A program made the translations under genes and the position numbers. The notes beneath the pieces were generated by a model. It searched no databases. It was not told where the DNA came from and worked only from the letters and a program-made list of their open reading frames with translations. A stretch of 45,107 nucleotides of DNA from a virus, in IMG/VR virus record IMGVR_UViG_3300025652_000138, positions 1 to 45,107 of that record, one strand, 5' to 3'. Below are positions 1 through 33,053 of this stretch, piece by piece (position 1 is the first letter of the stretch; every line of letters begins with the position of its first letter).

Positions 1-70
1 TACCCTCACAGCAATCTATTAGTGGGATATTCTTGAAATCAAAAGTGTTTGCGTTTTTAACTGATAGCAT
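1..70 (-). CDS. DNA polymerase family A, downstream fragment (partial, 5' end only)
   Basis: Only the first 23 codons are in the window. The ATG at 70-68 overlaps the TAA of the upstream UDG/exonuclease gene as TAATG. The visible residues include TFDFKNIPLIDCCEG. In Pol I-type proofreading domains a segment of this kind sits just before the Exo III motif (Y/C-x-x-x-D-x-x-x-T). That position, directly after an ORF ending past Exo II, is why I call it the rest of the polymerase. The polymerase domain itself would lie outside the window and was not seen. It could instead be the same protein reached by a frameshift or interrupted by a sequencing indel. Confidence 0.55.
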   Translation of the reverse strand, partial: MLSVKNANTFDFKNIPLIDCCEG

Positions 71-1104
71 TAGAACTTCTCATTAGGGAAGTAGTATTTA
101 GCAAGATCTGCGAGACTCTTAGGAATGTTCTCGTTAAGAAAATGCTGAAGGATCTTTGTATCGAAGACATTATACACATCCTCTACACCATAACGCTTTA
201 GGAACTTAAGGTCAAAGCCACAATTTTGAAGGACTTTACGATTGTTCTTATTACGCATTACTTCACAGATGAAAGACATGAATCTTCCCTTAGTTTTGTA
301 ACCTAGTTTAGCCTCCTTGTGATCAACGGGTACCACCAAGGTCCTACCTAAGTCCCCTGTCTCTCTATCTACCAAGGTCATTGATACAGTGTGGATGGAA
401 TCATTGTTAAAATCAAGACCTGTAGTCTCAATGTCTACCGCTACATCCAAGGAGGTGCTAGTAAACTCGTCCTTAACCTTATCCAACTCTTCAATACTCA
501 AACACATTGTGTATGGAGCATGAGACTCTATAGACATGTCTAACAAGTCATTTTCAATAGCGGCTTTGATATCGCCCCTGAAAAGAAAAGCATTCTTAGG
601 CTCCGCTACAACTTGGAAAGGATGAATAATAGGAACAACCTTAAACTCATGTCCGTTCTCGGTCTCCATAACATCCGTCTTACCTCTAACCTTTCCAGAC
701 TCTTTGTTCCTACCATAGAGCATGTTAGTAGCTACGCTACCACAAGCAAAAACTAAAGAAGGCTTCATGTGATCAAGAGTATCATGAAGGTGGACCTTAC
801 AAGCTTTCCTAACGGCAGATGACAGGTTATCAGCAGTGAATTGAGGGCACTTAACAGCAGTTGAGAACCCCACCTTCCATTCACCTAAACCCATACGCTC
901 TAGTTCGTTCTTAATAATCCTATACTCATTAGGACGAAACGCAGCATACTCCCCTTCGAACAACTTAGGGGAATCTGATAAGAACAGAATATCACAAGTG
1001 GATTCAAACTCGTAATCTAAGATAGTATGCTTAGGCAATGGAAGCTTTAAAGCAGGGCATTCGCCGCACTTAGGGTTGGCTCCTCGAAAACTGAGATCGC
1101 TCAT
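70..1104 (-). CDS. UDG-like domain fused to 3'-5' exonuclease: N-terminal part of a family A DNA polymerase
   Basis: 344 residues with two domains. Residues 1-190 resemble family 4 uracil-DNA glycosylases: four cysteines at 13, 16, 86 and 102 have the 4Fe-4S spacing (CxxC-x69-C-x15-C), followed by a CGSVATNMLYG helix at 121-131 and an HPF motif at 161-163. The usual GE(A/G)PG motif is SDSPK at 43-47, so glycosylase activity is doubtful. Residues 215-344 are a Pol I-type proofreading exonuclease with Exo I (D224, E226 in DIETTG), Exo II (N294, D298) and the conserved FDT at 314-316. Exo III is missing because the ORF stops after YYFPNEKF. SPO1-type phages carry a UDG domain on a family A polymerase, which supports the fusion. 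The likely role is replication and proofreading. The gene is divergent from the sigma gene, and a TATCAT box lies six bases before the ATG. Confidence 0.85.
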   Translation of the reverse strand: MSDLSFRGANPKCGECPALKLPLPKHTILDYEFESTCDILFLSDSPKLFEGEYAAFRPNEYRIIKNELERMGLGEWKVGFSTAVKCPQFTADNLSSAVRKACKVHLHDTLDHMKPSLVFACGSVATNMLYGRNKESGKVRGKTDVMETENGHEFKVVPIIHPFQVVAEPKNAFLFRGDIKAAIENDLLDMSIESHAPYTMCLSIEELDKVKDEFTSTSLDVAVDIETTGLDFNNDSIHTVSMTLVDRETGDLGRTLVVPVDHKEAKLGYKTKGRFMSFICEVMRNKNNRKVLQNCGFDLKFLKRYGVEDVYNVFDTKILQHFLNENIPKSLADLAKYYFPNEKF

Positions 1105-1121
1105 AGGACTATGATAGATTG
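1105..1121. promoter_or_regulatory. Divergent control region with an overlapping -10-like box
   Basis: Only 17 bases separate the polymerase ATG (1104, minus) from the sigma GTG (1122, plus). TATGAT at 1110-1115 on plus and TATCAT at 1116-1111 on minus overlap almost completely, and each is exactly six bases from its start codon. CATAG-GA-CTATG (1102-1113) is a small inverted repeat that spans the minus start codon. If these are -10 boxes, the two transcripts would start at or next to their start codons. No convincing -35 hexamer was seen. Confidence 0.4.
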
Positions 1122-1487
1122 GTGGCTAATTATATTGACAATAAAAAATTTGAAGACCTAATACAAGAATTCAAATCAGGTAACAAAGAACATGAGAATG
1201 AATTATTCAACATGTTCGATGTTCTTATTGATCGACTAATGTTATCTTTTAGATTTAACGTCGATCATGAAGAAGCAAAACAAGAATGCTTCTTACTTAT
1301 AATAAAGGTATTGAACAATTTCAAGAGAGAATCTGGTCAAGCCTTCAATTACTTTACTACCGTCATCCTTAATAACCTCCGACTCATTTACACTAAGAAT
1401 AAGAAGTATAATGAGAAGATGGAGGCTTATAAAAGATTTAAGGCCGGGAACTACATGCCTAGTTCCGCGCCGATAGAACCATTGTAA
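1122..1487 (+). CDS. Small sigma-70 region 2 protein, gp55-like late sigma factor
   Basis: 121 residues from GTG at 1122; a TTG at 1119 is an alternative. The centre, from HEEAKQECF to NNLRLIYTK, has the helical pattern of sigma region 2: an acidic helix for core RNA polymerase binding, a conserved NNF turn, then YFTTVILNNL, like the FAYFT segment of T4 gp55. There is no region 4, and the protein is shorter than T4 gp55 (about 185 residues). The expected role is to direct host RNA polymerase to late promoters, which fits the TATAAATA/CTAAATA motifs in the structural region. It lies alone on the plus strand between minus-strand genes, and its 3' end overlaps the convergent 123-residue gene by 37 bases. 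The main alternative is another small phage sigma-like regulator. Confidence 0.7.
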   Translation: MANYIDNKKFEDLIQEFKSGNKEHENELFNMFDVLIDRLMLSFRFNVDHEEAKQECFLLIIKVLNNFKRESGQAFNYFTTVILNNLRLIYTKNKKYNEKMEAYKRFKAGNYMPSSAPIEPL

Positions 1488-1822
1488 GTTACCACTCGCG
1501 GAAATGACTTATGAATAACAACCATCATTGGTAGCTGATCATAAGACTGCAAGCACGCAGTGGAAATGGTTTCTCTGTGAGATTTAATCGCAGACCTAAT
1601 TACTCCCAAAGGATTACGAACATCAAAAATGTCAATGACATTTAAATCCGTAGTACCGTCAGAAGGCAATTGATCATTAAAGTAGTTACACACGTCATCC
1701 CACTTATTTACAATGAGATAATATGCGTAATTCCTATCTTCTATATTGCTAACCACAGTAGACTCTAATTGCTTAGAAGTCTTAAGGTTAACAACACTGA
1801 AATTATTCTTTACTTTGCTCAT
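1451..1822 (-). CDS. Unknown 123-residue protein
   Basis: Not confidently recognised. The sequence is a mixed alpha/beta polypeptide. A strand-like YAYYLIVNK is followed by a segment ending LPMMVVIHKSFPRVVTYNGSI. The Pro-strand-NG pattern recalls the cis-Pro half of thioredoxin folds, but no CxxC is present, so that is only a guess. The start ATG overlaps the end of the upstream 103-residue gene by 20 bases, suggesting co-transcription and translational coupling. Its 3' end runs 37 bases into the convergent sigma gene. Confidence 0.7.
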   Translation of the reverse strand: MSKVKNNFSVVNLKTSKQLESTVVSNIEDRNYAYYLIVNKWDDVCNYFNDQLPSDGTTDLNVIDIFDVRNPLGVIRSAIKSHRETISTACLQSYDQLPMMVVIHKSFPRVVTYNGSIGAELGM

Positions 1823-2114
1823 CTGCGACTTCTACTTGTGGCTCTTCGGTTACAGCTTCGGGTGATCCCTCTGCCTTAGATTGCTGGTGTTGCTCCACGA
1901 GAGTCCTAATCTGCTCTGTCATTGTATTACACCCGGCAAAGAAAACCTGCTTATAAAAATCCTCATCACCTAACTCTGGTGGCTTGAGCTTGCAGAAGTT
2001 CTTAAAGCCTTCCGCTTCTTCCTTACTTAACTTAATCTGAATCTTCATACGACCTCTACTCCTTTCGGTTAATTTAACTTTAGCATCCTTCAACTTAAAC
2101 GATACTTTATCCAT
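1803..2114 (-). CDS. Unknown 103-residue small phage protein
   Basis: Not recognised. A basic N-terminal half (RSRGRMKIQIKLSKEEAEGF) leads to a helical middle (FYKQVFFAGCNTMTEQIRTLVEQHQ) and a Glu-rich tail of about 25 residues. The size, the basic/acidic split and the position next to a gp55-like gene would fit a transcription accessory protein such as a gp33-like co-activator, but no motif establishes this. The ATG at 2114 is preceded six bases upstream by TATAAT. It is the first gene of a two-gene minus-strand unit with the 123-residue gene and is divergent from the nuclease gene. Confidence 0.7.
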   Translation of the reverse strand: MDKVSFKLKDAKVKLTERSRGRMKIQIKLSKEEAEGFKNFCKLKPPELGDEDFYKQVFFAGCNTMTEQIRTLVEQHQQSKAEGSPEAVTEEPQVEVADEQSKE

Positions 2115-2142
2115 GAGCCTATTATAGTCATGGAACTAAAAT
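2115..2142. promoter_or_regulatory. Divergent control region between the 103-residue gene and the nuclease gene
   Basis: On the minus strand TATAAT (2126-2121) lies six bases before the ATG at 2114. On the plus strand the same AT-rich palindrome reads TATTAT (2120-2125), 17 bases before the nuclease ATG. An out-of-frame ATG at 2130 would encode only seven codons and overlaps the nuclease start. Promoter function is inferred from position and -10 similarity only. Confidence 0.4.
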
Positions 2143-2655
2143 ATGAAAGATGATTTTGACATTAGTCCTTTAACAAGGAAGAAGAAACTTAACTCTAGAG
2201 CGAAAGGAAATAGATTCGAGAATAAAATAGCCAAGATGCTTAATGAAAGATTTGAAACTAATGAATTCTGTAGAAGCCCTGGTTCTGGAGCATTCGCTAC
2301 TACTCATAACTTACCTTCATATTTAAAAATATATGGAGACCTTATAACTCCCGAGAAGTTTAAATACGTCATTGAAATAAAGAAAGGATACAATGACGAA
2401 AGAGTAAGTGATCTACTTAATCCTAAATCTCAAATATTTAATATGATAGGACAAGCTCACAGAGATTCTAAAAAATCTTCTAGAAAGTTTATTTTAATTA
2501 TTGGTCAGGATCGTAGAGATCCAATGGCTATTACTAATGAATTAAACCTTCCAGTAAGGGGATCTAAGGTTTCTGGGGTATTTAATGACGTTCAAGTAGA
2601 GATGTTTAAGTTAGCAGATCTACTAAGCATCGCTAATAGCTACTTTCTTTTTTAA
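2143..2655 (+). CDS. PD-(D/E)XK nuclease, Holliday junction resolvase-like
   Basis: 170 residues. Visible motifs in order are RAKGNRFENKIAKML with E26, CRSPGSGAF at 43-51, YGDLI with D66, and VIEIKKG with E78 and K80. The E...GD...ExK layout, with an Arg/Pro/Gly-rich segment between, is typical of archaeal-type Hjc/RecB-like phage nucleases that cut branched DNA. It probably acts in recombination-dependent replication or in trimming DNA before packaging, like T4 gp49 although from a different fold. The gene is on the plus strand. Its last 33 bases overlap the 3' end of the convergent 823-residue gene. A restriction-like endonuclease role cannot be excluded. Confidence 0.75.
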   Translation: MKDDFDISPLTRKKKLNSRAKGNRFENKIAKMLNERFETNEFCRSPGSGAFATTHNLPSYLKIYGDLITPEKFKYVIEIKKGYNDERVSDLLNPKSQIFNMIGQAHRDSKKSSRKFILIIGQDRRDPMAITNELNLPVRGSKVSGVFNDVQVEMFKLADLLSIANSYFLF

Positions 2656-5094
2656 AGATACTAAAATACTTTCTATTAAACTTAAGGCTTTAATAACCGT
2701 AGACTCTTCCTTAGGGCTTTTAGAATTGTTAGAGTACTTGTTGTAGTTACTTATTGTTTTCTTTCCGTAGTGTACTGAGTAGCTATTTGAATACGTTCCG
2801 TTAGACTTTCTAGATACTACTGCTTCCAGGGAGATTGTGTTACCGTTATCGTCCTCTAAAGTTATGGTAGTTGAACCCGGTTTACCTTCGTTTATCTTCC
2901 ACTTAGACCCAGGTTTCCCTAGATTCGCAAACGCATCTTCTAACGGTTGATTATGCTTAAATCCAAATATTTCATTGTTCTTAATATCTCTAATTTCTAA
3001 TCCTAAATCCCTGGTGCTATCCCCACCTACTCTCATCATTTTTAATTTAAGAGCATTAACTGCATTTTGATCTCCACTATTTATTTTAGACATTAACGAT
3101 TGCTTTTCAACGTATAGTGCAACCTTTCTCTTTATCTTGTCTGGAGGGTCGCCTTTATACTCTTCAATAATCTGCCTTAAATTGTTTGCTTCTGGTGACT
3201 CAGGGAGATACCCTACCGCATCAATTAGAGAATCTACTACAATATTACCGGCGGTATCAAATACGTTAGAAGTGACTTGTTCTCCGTTTACTTGAACGCT
3301 AACTTTTTCATTATTAATTAAGAATCCATTTAAATCAGATCCCTCTTTTAATATTTTTGCTGCTTCTCGGTAAGATTTTTTATCTAAACCTATGAAGTCT
3401 TTGTATGCTTCTTCAGAGTTTACAATGTCATTCTCCGCGTCAGTTAATTTTTCTCCCCTAAGTATCTTATCTACAATTTCAACAGTCCTAGCTTGAGATC
3501 CTCCTGTTTGTGACCCGGCAGTAATCCCTTTAGAAAGTCCAATATAATTTTTAAGACTTGTGTTAATAATGCACACTGTTTTTTCTTCTTCGGGAGAATC
3601 CTCGGACAAGCCTTTCAACTTGTCAGATCCTTTTAAGCACTTTAAAGATTCTTGGTGATCATCCGATAGATCTGAAATTGGGGTTAGTACGGGATCAACA
3701 CCAAGCTTACTGGCTGCATCTTTTGCGTCATCACAGTTGTCGAATACCTCTATAACATCTTGTCTCTTTCCCCCTCCCGTGTCTGTACCGGCTGGTAAAG
3801 CCATGACTGACCCTCTCTTGGCTATTTCTTTTCCATAAGGAATCATTGATTTAACTAATTTAGTTGTAAAGCTTCCTTCTTTAGACCCTACTTGTGTAAC
3901 TAATTCTTGAGCCATAGCAACGGTAGCAGCGTCTTCAAGGTCTAAGCCAGTTTGCTTCTCACTTTCAGTCCATGTTTCAGTTTGTTCGGTCAGCTTATCA
4001 ACTTTTCTTTTTATGTCAGTGACCAGTTTTGTTAATTGATTACCTAAACAATCGACCATTGCTTCGTCTTCATTAGCTTTTGCTTCTTGAATGAGATTAA
4101 AAAGATTTAAAACTTGAGGCAATTCTTCAAAGGTAAATCCTCGGTTTGCGTTCGCTCCTCCCGCCTTGTCCGTGTATAAATCAACTTCATCAGGAGAAAC
4201 TCTTTTATTACATTGAGTAAACGCTTTTTTAAGAACCCCTTCATATAATCCCGTTTGATCCGACACTACAATAGAGTCATTATCTAAAACATTATTATCT
4301 GCTGCTACAATTAAAGATCTATTGCCCTCTGAACCCGTCATTGCAAATTCATTTCTAAGTTTTTTACAATAACCTTCGTTGGTGGTTTTTTTATTTCCGT
4401 TAGCCAACTCTGTTAAATTGGCTAACTTATCTGCAATCTTAGATCTTAATTCTGCGTCGGGCTTAGAGTCTACTTTTATAAGTTTTCCATCTTTATATAT
4501 GAGTTTAAAAGATAGGTTAGTTAATCGAGATTCTAAAGATTGCTGTCCTCCACCTGTAAACCAGCTAAGAGCACCTTGAGGTGTCATTCCGACAGACTTA
4601 GCTAACTTCACAAACCATGTCCTGTTCACACAATTGTCTGACACTGTTTTAAAAGATTTAAGTATTGAGTTTGCAATTTCTTTCGTAAGACCACTCAATG
4701 TCTGAGTCATTCTTTCGATGGCCCATTCCCCAGGACTCTTTGATCTTTTAGTTTCAAATTTGGTTACACCTTCTTCCTCACCTACAATAGCTGTTAATAA
4801 TGCTTTAAATTTTTGGTTGTTTCCTTTAGAAGGAGCAAGAATACTATTTTTTGGATCGTATACTCCAGTTCCATTAGAAATTATTAATGATTTTGATTGA
4901 GTGCCTGCATACCATCGAGCTTGCTTGCCATTAACTGTAGCTACTTGTCCCTTAGGACCTTCAGGATTCCATTGAGAATTCTTTAAAATATCTAAAGCTT
5001 TAGGTACTCTAGGGTCTTCTTCTTGCTCCAGTAAACTAAGCCTTCGACCTGTAATTCGACTGAAACTCTCCAGTAATTCTTTATAGAAATCCAT
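2623..5094 (-). CDS. Large unknown protein (823 aa), possible virion-internal protein
   Basis: Not recognised. It is hydrophilic and mostly helical, with no signal peptide or membrane segment. The N-terminus (MDFYKELLESF...RRLSLLEQEE) is an amphipathic helix ending in an L-x-E run of the kind cut by T4-type prohead proteases, so it could be a capsid-targeting peptide. This is inference. Middle stretches are Lys/Asp-rich. The last 60 residues contain a Ser/Asn/Tyr-rich linker and a final helix. It follows the tube gene, where T4 has its portal gene, but nothing portal-like was seen. A hairpin and CTAAATA/TATAAT boxes just upstream suggest separate expression. The 3' end overlaps the nuclease gene by 33 bases. 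Confidence 0.75.
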   Translation of the reverse strand: MDFYKELLESFSRITGRRLSLLEQEEDPRVPKALDILKNSQWNPEGPKGQVATVNGKQARWYAGTQSKSLIISNGTGVYDPKNSILAPSKGNNQKFKALLTAIVGEEEGVTKFETKRSKSPGEWAIERMTQTLSGLTKEIANSILKSFKTVSDNCVNRTWFVKLAKSVGMTPQGALSWFTGGGQQSLESRLTNLSFKLIYKDGKLIKVDSKPDAELRSKIADKLANLTELANGNKKTTNEGYCKKLRNEFAMTGSEGNRSLIVAADNNVLDNDSIVVSDQTGLYEGVLKKAFTQCNKRVSPDEVDLYTDKAGGANANRGFTFEELPQVLNLFNLIQEAKANEDEAMVDCLGNQLTKLVTDIKRKVDKLTEQTETWTESEKQTGLDLEDAATVAMAQELVTQVGSKEGSFTTKLVKSMIPYGKEIAKRGSVMALPAGTDTGGGKRQDVIEVFDNCDDAKDAASKLGVDPVLTPISDLSDDHQESLKCLKGSDKLKGLSEDSPEEEKTVCIINTSLKNYIGLSKGITAGSQTGGSQARTVEIVDKILRGEKLTDAENDIVNSEEAYKDFIGLDKKSYREAAKILKEGSDLNGFLINNEKVSVQVNGEQVTSNVFDTAGNIVVDSLIDAVGYLPESPEANNLRQIIEEYKGDPPDKIKRKVALYVEKQSLMSKINSGDQNAVNALKLKMMRVGGDSTRDLGLEIRDIKNNEIFGFKHNQPLEDAFANLGKPGSKWKINEGKPGSTTITLEDDNGNTISLEAVVSRKSNGTYSNSYSVHYGKKTISNYNKYSNNSKSPKEESTVIKALSLIESILVSLKKKVAISDA

Positions 5095-5099
5095 ACTTT

Positions 5100-5105
5100 A
5101 TTATA
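5100..5105 (-). promoter_or_regulatory. TATAAT box five bases before the 823-residue gene
   Basis: TATAAT on the minus strand is followed by AAAGT and the ATG at 5094. The spacing matches the boxes before the 103-residue and polymerase genes. No good -35 lies 17 bases upstream. Promoter activity is inferred. Confidence 0.4.
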
Positions 5106-5111
5106 GACAAA

Positions 5112-5143
5112 TAGCCTTCCCTCTTATTTAGAGGAGAAGGCTA
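5112..5143 (-). terminator. Hairpin after the tail tube gene
   Basis: A 12-bp stem with one bulged A (arms 5112-5123 and 5131-5143) encloses a 7-base loop. On the minus strand the stem is followed only by TTTG, so the U-tract is weak. It sits 22 bases after the tube stop codon. The loop reads TAAATAA and, with the flanking C, contains CTAAATA, the 7-mer found in other intergenic gaps. The element could be terminator, processing site, promoter, or a combination. Confidence 0.5.
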
Positions 5144-5165
5144 CCGTAGTAAGAGTATTAGACCG

Positions 5166-5753
5166 TTAGTTAAGTCGGTCGTAGTCAATGAAGTCGTATC
5201 GGAAACTTACTTCAATCGTTGAGAAATCGTTTGTAGCGTAGTTCTTTTCCGAGAAGGTAACCCCTGTAGGATAAACACCGTAAACTTCTACATAAGAGTG
5301 AGGTTCGTTAGTGTTGTCCAACTCTAGGATAGTCATCTTAGCAGCCTTGAAAGACTTGTTGCCAGGACCACCAGGAGCAGCCAGTTGAGTTAGGTCCCCT
5401 GTCATAGGATCGTAGATAGACTTAAACCAGTTCCAAAGTGCAGGAGTATTACGAGACAACAATTGGTTATCAAAAGTTATCGTAAGAGGCTGTGGAGTAA
5501 ACTTGCCAGGGTAGTAAACTTTATCATTTAAACGATCTACTACAATATCTTCTACAGCACCTCCAATAGGACTAACTCTCTTAGCAGCAGAAGTTAATTC
5601 TTGTTGCTGCAATCTAAACTCTGCCGGTAATCCGAAAAACTTAACTTCAAACTGGTAGGCTCTAATAGCATCCAACTTGGTGGAAACCTTAGGAAGAGTC
5701 TTCCCAGGCTCAAAGTTTGCTCTGAAATCATTCTTTAAAAAACTATCTACCAT
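5166..5753 (-). CDS. Tail tube protein (gp19-like)
   Basis: 195 residues, about the size of T4 gp19 (163 aa) with extra length. It shows the tube-protein pattern: YQFEVKFFGLP near residue 33, a middle LTITFDNQLL strand followed by a WNWFKSIYDP segment, and a C-terminal VSFRYDFIDY strand. It is directly downstream of the sheath gene with a 5-base gap, the standard sheath-tube order in T4-type phages. It would stack as hexameric rings that form the inner DNA conduit of the contractile tail. A hairpin follows the gene. Confidence 0.88.
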   Translation of the reverse strand: MVDSFLKNDFRANFEPGKTLPKVSTKLDAIRAYQFEVKFFGLPAEFRLQQQELTSAAKRVSPIGGAVEDIVVDRLNDKVYYPGKFTPQPLTITFDNQLLSRNTPALWNWFKSIYDPMTGDLTQLAAPGGPGNKSFKAAKMTILELDNTNEPHSYVEVYGVYPTGVTFSEKNYATNDFSTIEVSFRYDFIDYDRLN

Positions 5754-5758
5754 AATTA

Positions 5759-7735
5759 TTATCCATTAATTGTTGCTGATTGACTCGTAAGGTTAACTTC
5801 GAATACAATTGTTTCAGCAGCCTTAGTAGGCTTAATTGTTACCGAACACCAAAGTTCATTTCTGTCAACTCTTGCAGGAGTGTTAATAGTTGAGTCACAC
5901 TTTACAGCACCTTCAAGGATTGCTCTTCTAGCTAGAAGATCATCAAGGAAAGGATTAATCGCATCTTCAATTAACTCCCAAGTGAGTTGATCATTAGGCT
6001 CAAACTGGAATGGCTTGCCAAGCTCAAGTAATACCTTTCGGATGTAGATCATTAGTCTACGAACATTAACTCTATCAAGTGCCGTTGGTGCTCTCTGAGT
6101 AGTTCTTTGACCAAAGATCGTAATGCCTGTAGTAGGATCATTCGAAATAGGGTTTACTGAGTTTGAGTATAGAGCATCCCTGTCGCCTTGATTAACGACG
6201 ATCTCTGTGGCAGTAGGCTTGGATAGGCGACCTCTTCTAAAGCCAGCAGGAGCGAACCACGGCTCTGACACAGCATCTGTGAAGACACACTGTCTAGCAG
6301 CAAAGATTGCAGGATCATACCATTGTTCTGCTGAAGCAAAAGGATTAAACACTTGAACCCAAGGCCAGTAAACCGCAGCATACGAAGAGTTTAAAGCAGC
6401 CGTTCTAGTAGTTGGATCTTGACCGTTAATCCATTTTACCGCATCTTGAACTTCATTCAATGCGTATGGAGGGGATACAATTGCCATGAAGTTCTTAGAA
6501 GTTTCAGCCAAAGATACAAAAGCATTCTGAACGGAATCATCCGTGATGCCAGGGATCAGCCCGATAGAGATATTTAAACCATCATCGTCTAAAGCATAAA
6601 TACCCGTCTTAGTAGTCTTTGATCCAATTAGATTAGTAGCAGCCGAAGCTCCACTTTCTCCATTAGCAAGATTGTAGGTTCCTTGAATAGGCTTTACAAA
6701 TCTTGGAGTTCCAACAGGAGAATTCTCGGTAGCGTTTGCAAACCCAGCCGCTGTTGCAGTCACTCCGAACTGATCAGGAGTAACGTAAGCGTCAGCACCG
6801 CTCAAAAGTTCTGCAAACACATACTCGGATTGATTATTTAATAGTTCTGAATTTAATATAAACTCAACAGATTCAATCCCAGAAGGAGATAACTCAATTG
6901 GAGAGAAGGACTCAGCTTGAGCACCATCACTGTTTACAATAATTCTATCTTTAGTGGATAGGTTGGCTACCTCAACTGACACACCTTGGGTACTACCATC
7001 TCTAAGGGCTGTTACATTGTAAGCAGTTCCTGGATAAATTGAGTTTACAACCAAGTCTACGCTAGAAGAAGTGTATCCGTTACGAGTAATGTTATTAGCT
7101 TCACCCGTGGCACTGACAGCACCTAAGATATTAACAGGTCTAAAGCCCATACCAGCAGCGGCAGACAGTTGTAGAGTTGCACCCGATCCGGCAAACTTAG
7201 AAGCTAAGAAAACATTGTCACCTTCAACATAAGCAAACACGTTTTGATCCGATGTAATAGAAGGGTTAAAAGCGTTTTGAATTATAGCAGAGGAGGTTGT
7301 GAAGTCTGTAGAGCTTGCAATTTCAACCGTAGCCGTTACAGCAGTGTTGGTAGCATTATCAGTAATTGAATAGTATATTGAAGACGCATGAGTAGGATTG
7401 TATCCGCTGACTACGAGAGCAGGAGAAGCTCCCACAGCTACATTAGCAGAAGCGTATGCTAGCACCTTATTAGGATCAATACCTCTTACAAAGTAAAGTT
7501 GGTTGGTAGCTTCTAGAATCTCTAAAGCACCCTCAAGACCCTGGCCTTCGAGAGCGGTGTCTGGCTTTCCAAAAAGTCTTAAAAGGTTTTCTTGGCTTGT
7601 AATAAGCGTAGGCTCATTAACAGGACCCTTATTAGCGAACCCTACTAAACCTACAACACTTGAATTGATATTCGGAGTGTATATTGAAATATCGTTTTCA
7701 ATAACTACAACGGATGGACTGGTTGGTATTGCCAT
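5759..7735 (-). CDS. Contractile tail sheath protein (gp18-like)
   Basis: 658 residues, matching T4 gp18 in size (659 aa). The N-terminus has the typical sheath start PSVVVIENDISIYTPN followed by VVGLVGFANKGPVNEPTLIT. The C-terminal third carries conserved core segments: WPWVQVFNP, FAPAGFRRGRL, IFGQRTTQ, RVNVRRLMIYIRKVL and the final VTIKPTKAAETIVFEVN strand used for inter-subunit linkage. The middle (about 100-340) is a Ser/Ala/Thr-rich surface insertion. It forms the contractile sheath around the tube. It is coupled to the upstream 85-residue gene by a 2-base gap. Confidence 0.95.
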   Translation of the reverse strand: MAIPTSPSVVVIENDISIYTPNINSSVVGLVGFANKGPVNEPTLITSQENLLRLFGKPDTALEGQGLEGALEILEATNQLYFVRGIDPNKVLAYASANVAVGASPALVVSGYNPTHASSIYYSITDNATNTAVTATVEIASSTDFTTSSAIIQNAFNPSITSDQNVFAYVEGDNVFLASKFAGSGATLQLSAAAGMGFRPVNILGAVSATGEANNITRNGYTSSSVDLVVNSIYPGTAYNVTALRDGSTQGVSVEVANLSTKDRIIVNSDGAQAESFSPIELSPSGIESVEFILNSELLNNQSEYVFAELLSGADAYVTPDQFGVTATAAGFANATENSPVGTPRFVKPIQGTYNLANGESGASAATNLIGSKTTKTGIYALDDDGLNISIGLIPGITDDSVQNAFVSLAETSKNFMAIVSPPYALNEVQDAVKWINGQDPTTRTAALNSSYAAVYWPWVQVFNPFASAEQWYDPAIFAARQCVFTDAVSEPWFAPAGFRRGRLSKPTATEIVVNQGDRDALYSNSVNPISNDPTTGITIFGQRTTQRAPTALDRVNVRRLMIYIRKVLLELGKPFQFEPNDQLTWELIEDAINPFLDDLLARRAILEGAVKCDSTINTPARVDRNELWCSVTIKPTKAAETIVFEVNLTSQSATING

Positions 7736-11776: not shown

Positions 11777-13462
11777 TTACTTTCTAGAGTACTGACCGTT
11801 ATCAAACGAATTACCATGGAACGCGGTGTTTCTCATGATCTCCGGCGTGAGGTAATCAACACCCGTACCAATCAATCGAATCACACGGTAGAATCTTGAA
11901 GCAGGCATAACTGCTGCCTTACCGTAACGAGTCAGGATACCCTTTCTCGGTTGGAAGGTCTCAGGATCCGTAACCGTATCCAATGGCATCATAGGAACGT
12001 AAGGGCAGTAGAAGAAGCCTGCATCCATTGCGTTCGAACCCTTGTAACCGACGATGATCTCATCTTCAGGGAACATAGGATCGACAACCAGATCGTACTT
12101 ACCAGCAAACTTACCAACGTATTGGATTTGGTTGCCAGTCATGTTAGTAGGACCATCCTTCTCAGGAAGACCACCTTCAAGCTTCGCAGCTGACTCAAGC
12201 ATCGATGCGATGACAGGAGACGTGATAAGGACATTACCCGGACCACGCAGGGTCGTACGGTAGATATCCGTGCTAGCAAAGTTAATCAGTGCCAGGACAT
12301 TCGAGTAAATGTGACCCAGAGTTTGCGGAGCAAAATTCGAGGTACCTTGCTCACCCGTGAATCTCTTAAGATCCATCACGTAGATGTTCGAGTAACGGTT
12401 ATGAATACCGTTAACCGCATCAGCACCTGTCAAGGACTCTTCAAGCTTCATATCGGCACTAAAGTCATACTCGTAAGAACCAGCCACAAAAGTTCCACCG
12501 TTTAAAGCTTCGTCAGGATTAGTAGCCGTTACATCGCCGCCTAAGCCAGTGAATGAATCTGCTCCACCTTGGTAAAGACTTTCGATTCTCCAACCCTCAC
12601 CAGATCCAATAGCACCAGGGCCGTAAGCGATCATTCGAATGTCTTCAATGAGTTCACGGTCGATTTCAAGGTTCATTTCCTTTGACAAGAGGTCAGTTAA
12701 TTCTGATTCCATGTCAAGGTTGTGATATGCCTTAAGGTCTTGAGCAGCCTCAAGAGTCCAAAGTGCTCTCATCTTACGCTCACGAGCTTGAACGGTTTGC
12801 TTCTGGATGTGAAGGTTAACTTCAGGAATGCCAGTAGTAGCTAATCGCTCGCCTGCGGAAACAGAGTAACCAAGGATCGACTTCTCGTTAGGATAAGAAG
12901 CAAGCTTGCCACCCATGGTGCCCGAAGGATGCCCTGCACCAGCAGTCGGACCATCAAATAAACCAAGAACATTGGAGGTATCAAACCCGTCTTTTGCACC
13001 AGCGTAAGTTAACGCACTCGTTCCGTCAATAGGGTCGAAAGCAACCGGAGGGTAACCAGCAACGCCACTCTGGGATCCAATCTTCTCTGCAACTAGGTTG
13101 CGAGGAGTGATTCGGAACTTGGAGTACATTGTTTGACCCACATTCGCGTGAGCACGCGAGTTACCCATGTAGAAGATTTGCGAAACCGGGCCGTCCATGG
13201 TCTGGGTGGCACCAATCTTATTGAAAACCAACTCAGGGTACATACGACGAATCATCGGGAATGCGAACTTTTGGAAAGTTCCAATCTTACCCGTAGTCGT
13301 GCCACCAACGCCGATAACTTCCTCATTAAGGTTGTTAGTTTGGAAAGCCTTAGCTTGGTTTTCCATCAATCTAGCGGTTTGATATGCGATGTGATCATCT
13401 CCGATCCCTTCAAGGAGTGGTTCCCAACGCTTCAGTAATTGATCTCTGTCTATTGCAGTCAT
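11777..13462 (-). CDS. Major capsid protein (gp23-like)
   Basis: 561 residues (T4 gp23 is 521). Diagnostic segments are FQKFAFPMIRRMYPELVFNKIGATQTM, SQIFYM, a long E-loop/insertion with YEYDFSADMKLEES, and the C-terminal part with VITSPVIASMLE, VGYKGSNAMDAGFFYCPYVPMM, and TRYGKAAV followed by FYRVI. This is the HK97-fold T4 capsid family. The gene lies directly after the scaffold gene, as in T4. The N-terminal 47 residues are Gln/Asn/Leu-rich and include LME (32-34) and LNE (45-47), possible sites for the gp21-like protease; cleavage after E47 would parallel gp23 maturation. A TGAGGAAA ribosome site precedes the ATG. Confidence 0.95.
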   Translation of the reverse strand: MTAIDRDQLLKRWEPLLEGIGDDHIAYQTARLMENQAKAFQTNNLNEEVIGVGGTTTGKIGTFQKFAFPMIRRMYPELVFNKIGATQTMDGPVSQIFYMGNSRAHANVGQTMYSKFRITPRNLVAEKIGSQSGVAGYPPVAFDPIDGTSALTYAGAKDGFDTSNVLGLFDGPTAGAGHPSGTMGGKLASYPNEKSILGYSVSAGERLATTGIPEVNLHIQKQTVQARERKMRALWTLEAAQDLKAYHNLDMESELTDLLSKEMNLEIDRELIEDIRMIAYGPGAIGSGEGWRIESLYQGGADSFTGLGGDVTATNPDEALNGGTFVAGSYEYDFSADMKLEESLTGADAVNGIHNRYSNIYVMDLKRFTGEQGTSNFAPQTLGHIYSNVLALINFASTDIYRTTLRGPGNVLITSPVIASMLESAAKLEGGLPEKDGPTNMTGNQIQYVGKFAGKYDLVVDPMFPEDEIIVGYKGSNAMDAGFFYCPYVPMMPLDTVTDPETFQPRKGILTRYGKAAVMPASRFYRVIRLIGTGVDYLTPEIMRNTAFHGNSFDNGQYSRK

Positions 13463-14618: not shown

Positions 14619-15860
14619 CTATCTTGTAACATTTGAATTAGGTCTTTTAGGTTGCATAGTAACGGGACCATTCTTGGGACCTCGAATCTGTCCTGTTTTC
14701 TTATCTATTCGCGCCTTAGCTAACTCCGTTTCCGCCGTAGTCTTGTCCGGTGTTTGTTTCTTTTTAGGATATAAAGGTGTATTAATTATGTCCTCTCCTG
14801 ACATGCCGTCATAGTTTGTTCTTGCCTCTTCAAACTTATGTTTAATCTTGCTGATAACTCTCTCATTGAATGACATAGAAGAATCCTCTCTTGGTAAGGG
14901 TTTGGCATTAGGTAAGGGTTTGGGTTTGGCATTAGCAGCATTAAGTCTAGCTTTTTCTTCCCTCTTCTTCTTAGCAGCCACAAGTCTAGCGTTTTCTCTG
15001 TCCTGTCTTGCCTCTCCGGTTAAATCATACCCCTCTCTGGTCTTCTTCTTACCTTTCTTACCTTTCAGCTTACCCACGAGAATGTCAGCAAATGTAGTCT
15101 TATCATCGCGGTTCAGATCAGGGAACTCACTCTTCTCACCCACCGAACCTTCACCTTCCGAACCTTCATCTGTATCTGAATCGCCTCTCATCATTTTAAA
15201 ATCCTTCTTATTGATCTTTTTATTTCCATCCTTGTCAAGCTCCTTCTGGTTGCCCTTAAGGGCTTCGTTAATCTTGCTTTCAAGCATCGTGAGAAGAACT
15301 CTATCCTTCTTATGCTTTGAAACAATCCTTTGAGCACGCTCACTGTTCTCTCTCATGGATTCACATAGCCCAGGAAAAGCTCCTTTAGTCGAAGGATCAG
15401 ATACAAGGTCAAACGTCACAAGCTTAAAGTCTTCGTTAACAATCTTACCTTCAGAGCCTTCCGATACACTGCCTAAACCTCTGCTTGAGATACCGATCTT
15501 AACACCGTCATTAATAAGAGCTTCGACAATCTTACCGTTAGGAGTGGATAGGATTTCACACTCACCCATAACATCCCCATTCTTCTCTACCCATAACTTG
15601 GTGATTAAGTGAGAAGCTTGAGACAAGTGAATAGCATCATTAGCAGGGTGGTCAAGAGCACCTACGAGAGAGCGATCTCCGATCTTTTCTTGAATAGTCT
15701 TTACTTGGTTTTCAAGAACCTTTCTAGGGTATACTCTGCCGTTGTTATTTTGTTCATCGCACTTTTGGAACTTGCCAAGCAACTTAAGCTTGGTAATTCC
15801 ATTCTTACTTTCATTAATAACTTTGACCTTATCTAAGACGCTGTACTCTACTAATAACAT
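14619..15860 (-). CDS. Prohead core protease (gp21-like) with a long charged C-terminal extension
   Basis: 413 residues; T4 gp21 is 212. The ATG at 15860 is chosen over an upstream in-frame TTG because AGGAA precedes it. The protease domain (1-170) has NNNGRVYPRKVLE, GALDHP with likely catalytic His71, and VKIGISSRG with the likely Ser at 125/126, as in the T4 prohead protease family. It would digest the scaffold and trim capsid proteins. Residues 171-413 are low-complexity, rich in Lys/Glu/Asn, and contain two EF-hand-like loops (209-220, DKDGNKKINKKD; 248-259, DLNRDDKTTFAD). Neither is expected in gp21. Confidence 0.9.
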   Translation of the reverse strand: MLLVEYSVLDKVKVINESKNGITKLKLLGKFQKCDEQNNNGRVYPRKVLENQVKTIQEKIGDRSLVGALDHPANDAIHLSQASHLITKLWVEKNGDVMGECEILSTPNGKIVEALINDGVKIGISSRGLGSVSEGSEGKIVNEDFKLVTFDLVSDPSTKGAFPGLCESMRENSERAQRIVSKHKKDRVLLTMLESKINEALKGNQKELDKDGNKKINKKDFKMMRGDSDTDEGSEGEGSVGEKSEFPDLNRDDKTTFADILVGKLKGKKGKKKTREGYDLTGEARQDRENARLVAAKKKREEKARLNAANAKPKPLPNAKPLPREDSSMSFNERVISKIKHKFEEARTNYDGMSGEDIINTPLYPKKKQTPDKTTAETELAKARIDKKTGQIRGPKNGPVTMQPKRPNSNVTR

Positions 15861-15868
15861 TATGATTC

Positions 15869-16273
15869 CTATTTCTGGTCCCGAGACCAATACTTATTGC
15901 TTTTGAATTTATCAGTATTTTGTTTGCCGTGACGCAATAAAGTTCTCACAGCATACTTCTTGACATCAGAAAACTTAGATGGTATTGTTCCAGAAGAGAA
16001 TCCCTTTGCGACTCTGCCTCCAACTTCCTGCTCATCATCGCTTCCCCATTTTCTTTTAGTAATTACGTAAAGTCTATCTGAGTTTTTAGTGGAGAACATT
16101 TGACCAACATAACCGTTGCGTAAAGCATCAGTAATTGAGTCGTATACTTTCACACGAGACTTAGAGGATTTAGAGTGTGATTTCTTACCAGACCCCAATC
16201 CTTTAGCCCTTCCTTCGGCAGAACCTTCGCCACTCTCGGCTTTAGCCTCTTTAATTAAGTTAACGAGATCCAT
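15869..16273 (-). CDS. Small basic protein of the prohead cluster
   Basis: 134 residues, strongly basic. An N-terminal helix (MDLVNLIKEAKAESGE) is followed by a Gly/Ser/Lys linker and a compact C-terminal half (VKVYDSITDALRNGYVGQMFSTKNSDRLYVITKRKW). K-A-E-S near residue 13 could be a prohead protease site. The location just before the protease gene corresponds to T4 core genes 67/68, so it may be a core or internal DNA-associated protein, but no family was recognised. The ATG overlaps the end of the 143-residue gene by 14 bases. Confidence 0.7.
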   Translation of the reverse strand: MDLVNLIKEAKAESGEGSAEGRAKGLGSGKKSHSKSSKSRVKVYDSITDALRNGYVGQMFSTKNSDRLYVITKRKWGSDDEQEVGGRVAKGFSSGTIPSKFSDVKKYAVRTLLRHGKQNTDKFKSNKYWSRDQK

Positions 16274-30400: not shown

Positions 30401-31449
30401 TTAGTTCCAATAGTTTTATAAATTGAAACAGCGTTTCTTAGTTGTAACCTCCATTTATTCGCATCATCCCCATATAAATCCCAACCAATTAATTGAGCTA
30501 CAAGAGGAAGGTAATCATCAGGACAATCATCTATATCGTATAGAGAAGCAATCTCCTCAGTTTGATTGTTGATGTCAAAAGCTAGGAAAGATAAAGACCT
30601 AATCAATCTGGCGAACGGACCACTTTCAACCTTATCAGTATACTTTATACTGTTTTCAGAAAAGGTTTTAAATCTATCTCTAACAGTAAAGTCGGATTTG
30701 TCAGCATAAAGAGGGGAGTAAGCTACATCAACCCAGGTCTTTAACTTATCTAATTGCTGTGTCCCACTCAAAGAAGCAGATGATCCAGGGGCAAACAAAC
30801 TTGAAGGATAGTAGTCCCCCATTTCGTTTCTCCATACAAACTCCGTCAATCCCTTGATACCGTCACTAATGCTTACAGGATTGCCTACAAATAAACTACT
30901 TGTTATTAAACCCTTGACATAAGAAGAGGGATCAAAAGAATCTCCTGAAGTATTTAAAAAATACATCCAAGATAATTTATTTATTAAATAATTGTGTATA
31001 GCGGAGGTGGATCCTATACTTCCAAAGTAAGTAGAGTCAGGATTGTTTAAGTTTATAGCTGGAAGTAAAGTATCCTCTAGGAACTGGTCAAACTCATTTA
31101 AGTTCTCAAAACTAGCAAACGTCCTGTCAAAATAAGTAAGAACATCATCTTCGAACTCTTGAGTAGTAATGTTGGTTAGTTGATTTTGCTTTACAAAAAA
31201 TGGAGCTATGCCCTTAAAGGAATCTATGGAACTGTACAAGCCCTGCGAAACAGCACTAACATGTAACACAGAAGATATGTTATTAGCGATATCTAAATGA
31301 GAGTTGATTAAAGTGTCAACTACATCAACGTCCTTAGCGGTTCCCTCGATATCATCTTCATAGAGATACTCAGGAAGAATGTACTTTAATGCTTTAAAGT
31401 AATTTGGCTTAAAGTATGTTTGATTTCTTAAATAAGTCTTACCCGACAT
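27478..31449 (-). CDS. Giant tail protein I (P2 gpI family) baseplate wedge protein
   Basis: 1323 residues; a typical gpI is about 180-250. Residues 301-361 hold the diagnostic block: SLYDIDDCPDDYLPLVAQLIGW, WRLQLRNAVSIYKTIGTKKAIQRTV, matching the phage tail protein I core. The segments before it are helical and tail-like. The rest of the protein, about 950 residues, is beta-rich with many Ser/Asn and a conserved-looking GGRRVGVWIHTKPESGK region near residue 1080. gpI is the wedge protein next to gpJ, as here, where it begins in a TAATG overlap with gpJ. The extension could replace separate fibre-attachment or gp7/gp10-type wedge parts. Confidence 0.85.
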   Translation of the reverse strand: MSGKTYLRNQTYFKPNYFKALKYILPEYLYEDDIEGTAKDVDVVDTLINSHLDIANNISSVLHVSAVSQGLYSSIDSFKGIAPFFVKQNQLTNITTQEFEDDVLTYFDRTFASFENLNEFDQFLEDTLLPAINLNNPDSTYFGSIGSTSAIHNYLINKLSWMYFLNTSGDSFDPSSYVKGLITSSLFVGNPVSISDGIKGLTEFVWRNEMGDYYPSSLFAPGSSASLSGTQQLDKLKTWVDVAYSPLYADKSDFTVRDRFKTFSENSIKYTDKVESGPFARLIRSLSFLAFDINNQTEEIASLYDIDDCPDDYLPLVAQLIGWDLYGDDANKWRLQLRNAVSIYKTIGTKKAIQRTVNTVFPKDKFPIESRITEMWESYVPYLIYYALATESDKFKDFQTWNRDEAENMDVEGYSTNSMDENIRMAVDRILLETVQQFPDSFSLTYWIEQSSLSFNYRGRVYPIPPFEEYPYYVNVELNQDMISFIADRLACFGVRQEFALDVSSYISSNALNVDDEPRAGSWLLFTSGYNSPPNLDNLLLNLNDNRFDYASLWSGKSSHFKLVLDASEFDFTKKGLTGVDSGDAIGLLSQSVLRSAPAHSIPLISLEVSGEPDLVSLEGSSLPLIYYDDTEIDVGAGNNYFTKGFSFNSYKRGVNPGGNEIQRSATESLVSPEFLTESVVGAIPRNTSRRRSYEKVMPFNGYYDRTGFNMPVGFSMASGLSGIPLGLVPSSLGYTPVTSHVNLPAIWAQCEGLNSTNSYYEYDVSNTQNVRGIASTFQSNSDYTTDRGQLPGIYASMHRISENEKYLRSYLVSGPIALKNQIAITTDETELNTLRDLLTNQTRGILQSYANGFSNSSVVGYAFPESTSDYYNFEFGRDLHRLYHQYKDNFKWHRLSPEVQELDGANLFSHVFGPLVYNHNFEKLGNVTELVSTSFASPAKISVTSTPFTGAGSFAASSPESMYLDTPERVSSGIIDGVELVLASATSENNSFSIIKVPGSSKKSYEETFLFDKTLLLMRSGFGALTRIRFDISKYEEPYNHPISKNFLTPDHDFKIDLNSIISNDAGTFLGGRRVGVWIHTKPESGKMWTYDKYGKWIHHDQRVSRSHLMSRYGHIKSLAYKPNDPESTNTPGLECIDNTGTSRTSPVIGLGEDDFENFEIHFDTRNRELIVPKDYQSSYGQIHRLTQEYVVEVFMAPGSQPDEFMLIDKVSIQDLTLKTLSEVFAAGTLSDPLCSLSEFKYGCEEYRVELSKKDLFDVLKHFNNLSGKNAAIPYASRDKDKTETIMGPRGGSKVNYVFTDEFVGGRHLLNPILHLEIIFYS

Positions 31450-33053
31450 TAGATGTAATTTACCTTGACAGTTAAGTTATTAAGCTGTATGATTTCATTA
31501 AAGCCTACTGTAATTGCAGATTCCACATTGTCAACCGTTGCGTATCTAATATTAGTTTCATCCTCTAGAACAGTTCTAATAAGATCCTGAGGAACGAAAG
31601 GCTCCGCAAAGTCAGTATTATCAATGTTCATGTAGTTTTCAATGGACGCTCTTGCACTCTGAATTAAAGGAGCTTCATTTCTTCTGAATTTAGAATCTAC
31701 AGTTAAAGTTACTATCAAATCTAAAGTTCTGATTAATCCGTCAACGATGACAACCTCATCCGTAAGCATCTTCTTGTCTTGTATCTCAGCCAGAAGCTGT
31801 CTCTTATACTCCTTCGTAGCACGCCTCAGTTGCCTGTCTGAGGCTCGTTCTAATACAAACAAGTCTATCATATTAGCGGAAGAATAAGCTCGTCTAACGG
31901 TGGCTGTGACCTTCCCAGTGCTTCCGTAGTTAGAGGCAAACAAATTAGCAAACCCCTTATAATCAGAAAGAGTTACAAGCCGGTCCTGACTTCTAAACAC
32001 TAGTGGCGCATATCTTTTAGCTTGAGCTATAGACTCGGCACCTCTTCCTCCAGTTCCTACACTAGTATTTTCCAAGGTTCCTTGAATCTGCTCCGTAGCT
32101 GCGCCAAGCGTGGAAGTAATGGTTATAGGAATGTTTAAAGATCCATTTGCGATATTACCTCTAGTTCCTCCTCCAACTCGATAAGTGACAGTATATTGAT
32201 CTCCTATAGAAGGGCTTTGACCAATACTGTTATCCCCGAACAAAAGAGAAGCCCTAAAAGTTTCATCAGTAGTTACCTGAAAAACCTTATCTGTGCCGCC
32301 GGAGGCGAAATAGATATTTTCTTCTTCCTTATAAATTCCCTCGGTTAGAGGATTTCCTTCTAGGTACACCTGAGCACTTTTCTCAATGTAAGGGGCTTGA
32401 CCTAGATTGATTGATTGGATAGATTCAGGAGACGTAAAGGTCCCCCTCTCTCTTACCAAAGCTCCTTCCAACAATACCGCATCCGTAACCAAGACTGTGC
32501 CGCCTGAAGAAGAAACTTCAAATTCTAAATCAACTGAAGGAGTGGTTAAGTCTACAGTTCCGTTTGAGTTTACTTTGTATAACGTATAACTTAACGTAGC
32601 TCCATCCTCAGGAGACGTAATTGATTTAACTCTATCAACAGCCGCTACTGTCATTGAAGAAGGAGCAGCAACAGCGTTCGTAGTGTATGTAACGGATGCG
32701 TTAGCAGCAGCAGCAATAGGACCCTTCATCCGAACCCCTATAAGCTCCATCAATCTCTTTACACTATCCCTACTACGTGCCGTTCCAATGTAGTTTTCGT
32801 TAGCAAGGTAATCAGACTTATTCGATTGAATGTGCCCTACCGCTGCCATCATCTCAAGTAATAACATTCCAAAGTCAGAGCTTTCAAAGTTATTATAATC
32901 TAAAGGAAAATTAGCTTTTACATACGATAACAGATTAGATCGTAAAGAATTAAAGTCCGACGAAGCGAAATTTATGAGTCCCTGCTTATTGTCCAGTTCA
33001 GAAGGAAGTTTCTTTAAAAAATCTGATTGAACCGTTCCTGAAAATACTACCAT
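31449..33053 (-). CDS. Baseplate J-like wedge protein (gp6/gpJ family)
   Basis: 534 residues. Seen in order: an N-terminal helix block with NFASSDFNSLRSNLLSYVK and FESSDFGMLLLEMMAAVGH, an all-beta middle, the GGGTRGNIANGSLNIPIT segment, and the C-terminal gpJ-type core with GGRGAESIAQAKRYAP, RLVTLSDYKGFA and GKVTATVRR. These are the landmarks of the baseplate J family, which forms the wedge ring of contractile tails. It is coupled by TAATG at both ends: upstream to gp25 and downstream to tail protein I, giving the W-J-I order of P2-like and T4-like baseplates. Confidence 0.9.
   Translation of the reverse strand: MVVFSGTVQSDFLKKLPSELDNKQGLINFASSDFNSLRSNLLSYVKANFPLDYNNFESSDFGMLLLEMMAAVGHIQSNKSDYLANENYIGTARSRDSVKRLMELIGVRMKGPIAAAANASVTYTTNAVAAPSSMTVAAVDRVKSITSPEDGATLSYTLYKVNSNGTVDLTTPSVDLEFEVSSSGGTVLVTDAVLLEGALVRERGTFTSPESIQSINLGQAPYIEKSAQVYLEGNPLTEGIYKEEENIYFASGGTDKVFQVTTDETFRASLLFGDNSIGQSPSIGDQYTVTYRVGGGTRGNIANGSLNIPITITSTLGAATEQIQGTLENTSVGTGGRGAESIAQAKRYAPLVFRSQDRLVTLSDYKGFANLFASNYGSTGKVTATVRRAYSSANMIDLFVLERASDRQLRRATKEYKRQLLAEIQDKKMLTDEVVIVDGLIRTLDLIVTLTVDSKFRRNEAPLIQSARASIENYMNIDNTDFAEPFVPQDLIRTVLEDETNIRYATVDNVESAITVGFNEIIQLNNLTVKVNYI

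Follow-up and report, generated by a model that had tools for sequence, protein, structure and literature searches.

Family A DNA polymerases are textbook single-chain enzymes. At the edge of the 45,107-nt stretch of viral DNA analyzed here (the whole of which we call the window), however, a gene with family A polymerase features stops partway through its 3'-5' exonuclease domain, raising the question of how the rest of the enzyme is encoded and whether it is one protein at all. The edge gene, ORF1, matches the Pfam families UDG (2.2e-7) and DNA_pol_A_exo1 (1e-13). A first-pass annotation had placed Exo I (D224/E226) and Exo II (N294/D298) in ORF1, with the frame ending before Exo III, and we find these residues exactly where it put them. 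ORF1 ends in a TAATG at window positions 72-68, in which the TAA (72-70) overlaps the ATG (70-68) of the next frame, ORF2. The coordinates of these and the other features are collected in Table 1.

Table 1. Coordinates of the polymerase locus and associated features. Positions refer to the window unless another contig is named.
Feature	Position	Strand	Description
ORF1	70..1104	(-)	344 aa; UDG-like domain at the N-terminus, followed by the initial portion of a DEDD 3'-5' exonuclease, with Exo I and Exo II
UDG-like domain	535..1104	(-)	ORF1 residues ~1-190; Pfam UDG; Foldseek best 1ui0, 4zby
Exo I D224-x-E226	427..435	(-)	Kept in all alignment rows covering the site (48/49, one gap)
Exo II N294-x3-D298	211..225	(-)	N in 48/49, D in 49/49 alignment rows
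ORF2 start, 23 codons	2..70	(-)	MLSVKNANTFDFKNIPLIDCCEG; frame runs off the window; remainder and ORF3 read from L002
ORF2	L002 7035-7565		176 aa; Exo III aspartate D27 and first half of thumb
ORF3	L002 7555-8619		354 aa; second half of thumb and palm/fingers; PF00476 (DNA_pol_A) 1e-73
Insert regions between ORF1 and ORF2 (examples)	L094 5477-5992; L201 5028-5456; L104 4952-6007; L200 3330-4118; L145 3928-4551		
T4-like structural module	5759-7735, 11777-13462, 14619-15890, 31449-33053		Sheath, major head protein, head protease, baseplate wedge

The N-terminus of ORF1 carries four cysteines, C13, C16, C86 and C102 (window 1104-799), which we take to be the iron-sulfur pattern of family-4 uracil-DNA glycosylases (UDGs), with HP161-162 alongside. 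Each cysteine is present in 42-43 of 49 alignment rows and the HP pair in 48 of 49. The AlphaFold2 model of ORF1 (mean pLDDT 77.5) shows a UDG fold and exonuclease strands, and Foldseek matches it to family-4 UDGs and to the exonuclease domains of Klenow and the apicoplast polymerase. The best Foldseek matches are family 4, and this domain may be a family-4-like UDG with putative glycosylase activity.

Past the window edge, the polymerase locus is carried onward by L002, an IMG/VR contig with 96% DNA identity over window positions 1-7104 that extends ~1.5 kb further, and by about 100 other contigs. The 23 residues of ORF2 inside the window had been thought to lead into Exo III, and in L002 the next residues, NAKD, hold the Exo III aspartate. 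An ORF2 profile aligned to Klenow by hmmsearch (2e-17) places D27 on that aspartate, and its C-terminal part aligns with the thumb's first half. The following ORF3 supplies the polymerase motifs (in L002, motif A D121; motif B R170, K174, F178 and Y182; motif C D296), and its homology to DNA polymerase family A is certain. The three proteins cover the DNA polymerase family phrog_17 contiguously, ORF1 over positions 547-785, ORF2 over 800-922 and ORF3 over 930-1236. Thus, the expectation that the next ORF would continue the enzyme held, and so did the proposed break at the TAATG (junction 1). Missing from the annotation is a second break, in the thumb (junction 2), beyond the window edge: the family A polymerase of the window phage is encoded by three tandem genes. 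The breaks correspond, by our own placement on Klenow numbering, to approximately residues 475-483 of E. coli Pol I, in the loop before the Exo III helix, and to ~618-629 in the thumb.

Single contigs often contain homopolymer and frame errors, and an indel of sequencing or assembly in the window could make one gene look like several. Searches with ORF1, ORF2 and ORF3 turned up 48 distinct loci, and a wider IMG/VR scan yielded 447 viral matches (80 of them retained), together with one contig from a Prochlorococcus single-cell genome. The final census holds 102 distinct loci, all metagenomic or single-cell with no isolate among them; many are close relatives rather than independent observations, and the most distant differ by 50-70% in protein sequence. 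The same architecture recurs in these 102 loci, down to ~30-50% protein identity, and we therefore reject an indel error as a practically negligible possibility, in agreement with the annotation's preference for coupled genes. ORF1 and ORF2 are fused in none of the 102. Junction 2 is split in 95, such that the thumb is divided between ORF2 and ORF3 and the single-chain thumb-palm-fingers architecture is not kept; in the other seven, ORF2 and ORF3 are one gene.

The genes meet at junction 1 with a 1-nt overlap in 71 of the 102 loci (69 TAATG, one TAGTG and one TGATG), and with TAATATG in one more. TAATG had been described as the normal operon junction of this phage, and the seven cases cited in its structural genes are exact (10287, 10832, 22224, 27478, 31449, 33053 and 40598). 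As the bare 5-mer occurs 169 times in the window, the motif by itself is no proof; the TAATG at junction 1 nevertheless goes beyond chance because it is conserved across relatives.

Overlapping frames could also mean that programmed frameshifting or readthrough yields one continuous polymerase and that the ORFs are only apparent. This reading would suit the overlaps, which in most loci measure 1 nt at junction 1 and 8-14 nt at junction 2, and the constant relative frame (+1) at junction 2 in 40 of 41 three-piece loci. However, 30 of the 102 loci have unrelated genes, in some cases on the opposite strand, inserted between ORF1 and ORF2, which rules out frameshifting or readthrough at junction 1 of those loci. 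The frame relation also differs in L028 (at junction 1) and in L090 (at junction 2, where ORF3 begins after the ORF2 stop), and the inserts and changed frames together argue for separate translation. Moreover, the ORF2 tail and ORF3 head include residues superfluous to a fused product, and inspection of both junctions by eye revealed neither a slippery heptamer nor a +1 slip site. We consider a frameshifted or read-through product highly unlikely; as a means of joining the frames, which the annotation had entertained, it is largely excluded by the inserts and the differing frame relations.

The inserted genes include a full saccharopine dehydrogenase, a glycosyltransferase and, on the opposite strand, genes that are small or lipoprotein-like. 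Inserts of at least 10 kinds occur across the 30 loci, in either orientation, and the junction between ORF1 and ORF2 resembles a landing site for cargo genes.

Phage polymerase genes are also classic intron sites, and a mobile intron or split intein might join the pieces at the RNA or protein level, as could be suspected from a relative, Bacillus phage Goe26, whose polymerase is interrupted by an intervening ORF. In the present loci, by contrast, nothing intervenes at the TAATG or at junction 2, no flank of intein size is present, and 71 of 102 loci have no intervening sequence at junction 1; where genes are inserted, they are of several unrelated kinds. A search for Rfam introns at the gathering score found none, with low power, as the Goe26 control itself scored 16.6 bits against RF00028. 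Splicing at either level thus seems to us a very slight possibility.

Shine-Dalgarno-like matches of at least 4 nt precede ORF3 in 38 of 41 loci and ORF2 in 12 of 41, compared with 39% of internal ATGs. The few matches at ORF2 would be expected if it relies on reinitiation, and in the window phage we think that ORF2 most likely starts by termination-reinitiation at the TAATG. ORF3, whose start codon across the loci is frequently GTG or TTG, would most likely start by reinitiation as well, aided by a Shine-Dalgarno-like GAGG within the end of ORF2. As this GAGG also codes for a conserved Arg-Gly, we treat the signal as supportive rather than as proof, since its conservation could be due to coding only.

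At junction 1, no residues are lost relative to the single-chain phage proteins that combine UDG, exonuclease and polymerase domains (UDG-Exo-Pol). Between fixed anchors at junction 2, split enzymes have 65 residues vs 34 in the fused two-piece ones, and the ~30 extra residues are mostly predicted helix on the ORF2 side. Such additions would fit newly formed docking ends.

Purifying selection is strong on each of the three ORFs, with median dN/dS values, taken over pairs that are not independent, of 0.039 (ORF1), 0.033 (ORF2) and 0.023 (ORF3). The D/E of polymerase motif A, the R/K/F/Y of motif B and the aspartate of motif C are conserved in every covering row. Likewise, the four exonuclease carboxylates are invariant where covered, although they lie on two chains: D224, E226 and D298 on ORF1 and D27 on ORF2. 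This distribution supports the annotation's suggestion that the proofreading site would be built from two polypeptides, which, judged from the residues, it probably is. The annotation overlooked a change within the site. The Exo III tyrosine, whose place is four positions ahead of the aspartate, is a glycine in 102 of 102 split loci and is present in all eight single-chain phage relatives compared. We therefore class the composite exonuclease as DEDD-like rather than DEDDy (PF01612), and given the lost tyrosine its proofreading may be weak or altered.

The missing tyrosine might instead mean that the pieces work apart, with ORF3 (together with ORF2) an exonuclease-free polymerase and ORF1 a stand-alone repair protein bearing an inactive exonuclease remnant. 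That ORF1 is uncoupled from ORF2 by inserts in 30 loci would fit this as well. But ORF1's Exo I and II carboxylates and ORF2's Exo III aspartate, of no use singly, are jointly invariant, junction 1 cuts within the exonuclease domain, off any domain border, and ORF3 on its own is without half its thumb. The C-terminus of ORF1 is, in addition, predicted to be unfolded in isolation: residues 318-344, the part that would pack against ORF2, have pLDDT <50. ORF2 modelled alone reaches a mean pLDDT of 57.8 from a thin alignment (21 sequences), with weak Foldseek matches, the best of them to Bst Pol I. These poor models would fit chains that depend on a partner, and for ORF2 the thin alignment would be a fit too, so we take them as weak evidence. 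On balance, independent function of the pieces appears unlikely.

Collectively, our data favor a model, to which we assign a probability of roughly 0.86, in which three separately translated polypeptides assemble into one family A replicase whose proofreading site is composite. ORF1 would contribute Exo I and II, with the exonuclease segment around them, and the UDG-like domain. The Exo III helix, which completes the metal site of the exonuclease, would come from ORF2 along with the thumb's first half; ORF3 would add the other half of the thumb, together with the palm and fingers bearing motifs A, B and C. The assembled complex would have both polymerase and proofreading activity. A more speculative extension, which we hold to be doubtful, is a heterotrimeric replicase with a two-chain, tyrosine-less exonuclease in which proofreading and UDG form a detachable subunit, such that assembly toggles the enzyme between high-fidelity and exonuclease-free states. 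Many relatives have moved the ORF1 gene away from ORF2, which is why an independent supply of ORF1 comes into consideration here.

A tree of the polymerase domain separates all split enzymes from the others by a branch with 100/100 support. The simplest order of events is a single-chain UDG-Exo-Pol enzyme broken at junction 1 and then at junction 2. The split enzymes comprise two three-piece clades and a two-piece clade, and the three-piece enzymes form one group in 38% of bootstrap trees; the two-piece clade could represent either the older state or a re-fusion. A single origin of the split at junction 2 is favored because ORF2 tails and ORF3 heads match in both three-piece clades. The iron-sulfur cysteines of ORF1 are retained in the three-piece clades and lost in the two-piece clade.

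Outside the split group, tblastn against 50,697 phage genome records yielded distant homologues only, each <60% identical. In those records, the L002 ORF2 protein had no match and the ORF2 protein of L201 had weak matches only. The homologues examined from phage genome records are single-chain or broken at other places. One of them, Vibrio phage D69 (OZ195729.1, 187 kb), has a family A polymerase seemingly in several ORFs (740-4499), with small ORFs between and break sites unlike those of the present split, and it is unannotated as such.

The structural genes of the window are T4-like, with a major head protein, head protease, tail sheath and baseplate wedge, and are here paired with a family A rather than a family B polymerase. 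In the related records searched, which are fragments of up to 91 kb, neither PolB nor Pol III alpha turned up, and no additional PolA. A candidate backup polymerase, a weak extra PF00476 match in the record G013, proved to be the ORF2 part of the split gene. Beside ORF1 lies a small divergent gene (window 1119-1487, plus strand) that also occurs in L002-L006 and L201 and is conserved in all relatives examined. It resembles Pfam sigma-70 region 2 weakly (E 0.0025, below cut-off) and is possibly a phage late sigma factor. L201 itself (QCKN01000003.1, 130604 bp) is a relative found within a contig of the Prochlorococcus single-cell genome AG-409-P03, and its neighboring genes include ribonucleotide reductase and, by eye, ferredoxin-like and iron-sulfur assembly-like genes. 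This contig makes Prochlorococcus a possible host lead.

We thus describe a family A polymerase that is cut twice, in the domain of the exonuclease active site and in the thumb, and whose pieces have been kept apart over long divergence. As one-, two- and three-piece enzymes form a graded series, the growth of docking ends is directly testable, and the natural break points may be of use in split-polymerase design. Surveys that rely on annotation or on PolA as a marker, and assume a single gene, would misread or miss this group, for which one scan gave 447 IMG/VR matches.

Split phage polymerases are already known. In the open-access full-text literature we found no precedent for a three-piece family A polymerase or for a proofreading site divided over two genes. 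The nearest unsplit counterparts are single-chain UDG-Exo-Pol family A polymerases such as gp205 of phage PaBG (PMC7412058). Others occur in Myoviridae sp. ctfzr933 (Manatee Spring), Serratia phage Serbin, Lysinibacillus phage LysYB1 and Pseudomonas phage PMBT14, among others. They share the domain order of the split loci and have detectable homology to each of the three ORFs, at ~22-30% identity to ORF1 and ~30% to ORF3, but are one chain of ~785-942 aa and keep the Exo III tyrosine (8/8). The OM43 phages MEP401/402 also encode a family A polymerase on separate ORFs, an arrangement conserved in most of their phage group (PMC10580990). There, however, the break falls at PF00476 positions 132/154 in the polymerase core, leaving the exonuclease intact on the first of two pieces, with a small ORF between; its authors report no UDG domain and suspect that an intron is involved (PMC10580990). 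The DNA polymerase III alpha core of jumbo phages is likewise divided over proteins thought to reassemble, but it is of family C, its genes are distant and its proofreading site is unsplit (PMC7824862). Finally, gene 43 of Aeromonas phages 25 and 44RR provides another phage replicative polymerase in pieces, differing in that it is of family B and in two pieces, with intercistronic sequence or a seg homing endonuclease between them (PMC2988022). Its 43A and 43B products, in Aeromonas phage 25, co-purify and have activity (PMC2988022), and this assembly of a split polymerase from another family supports the model proposed here.
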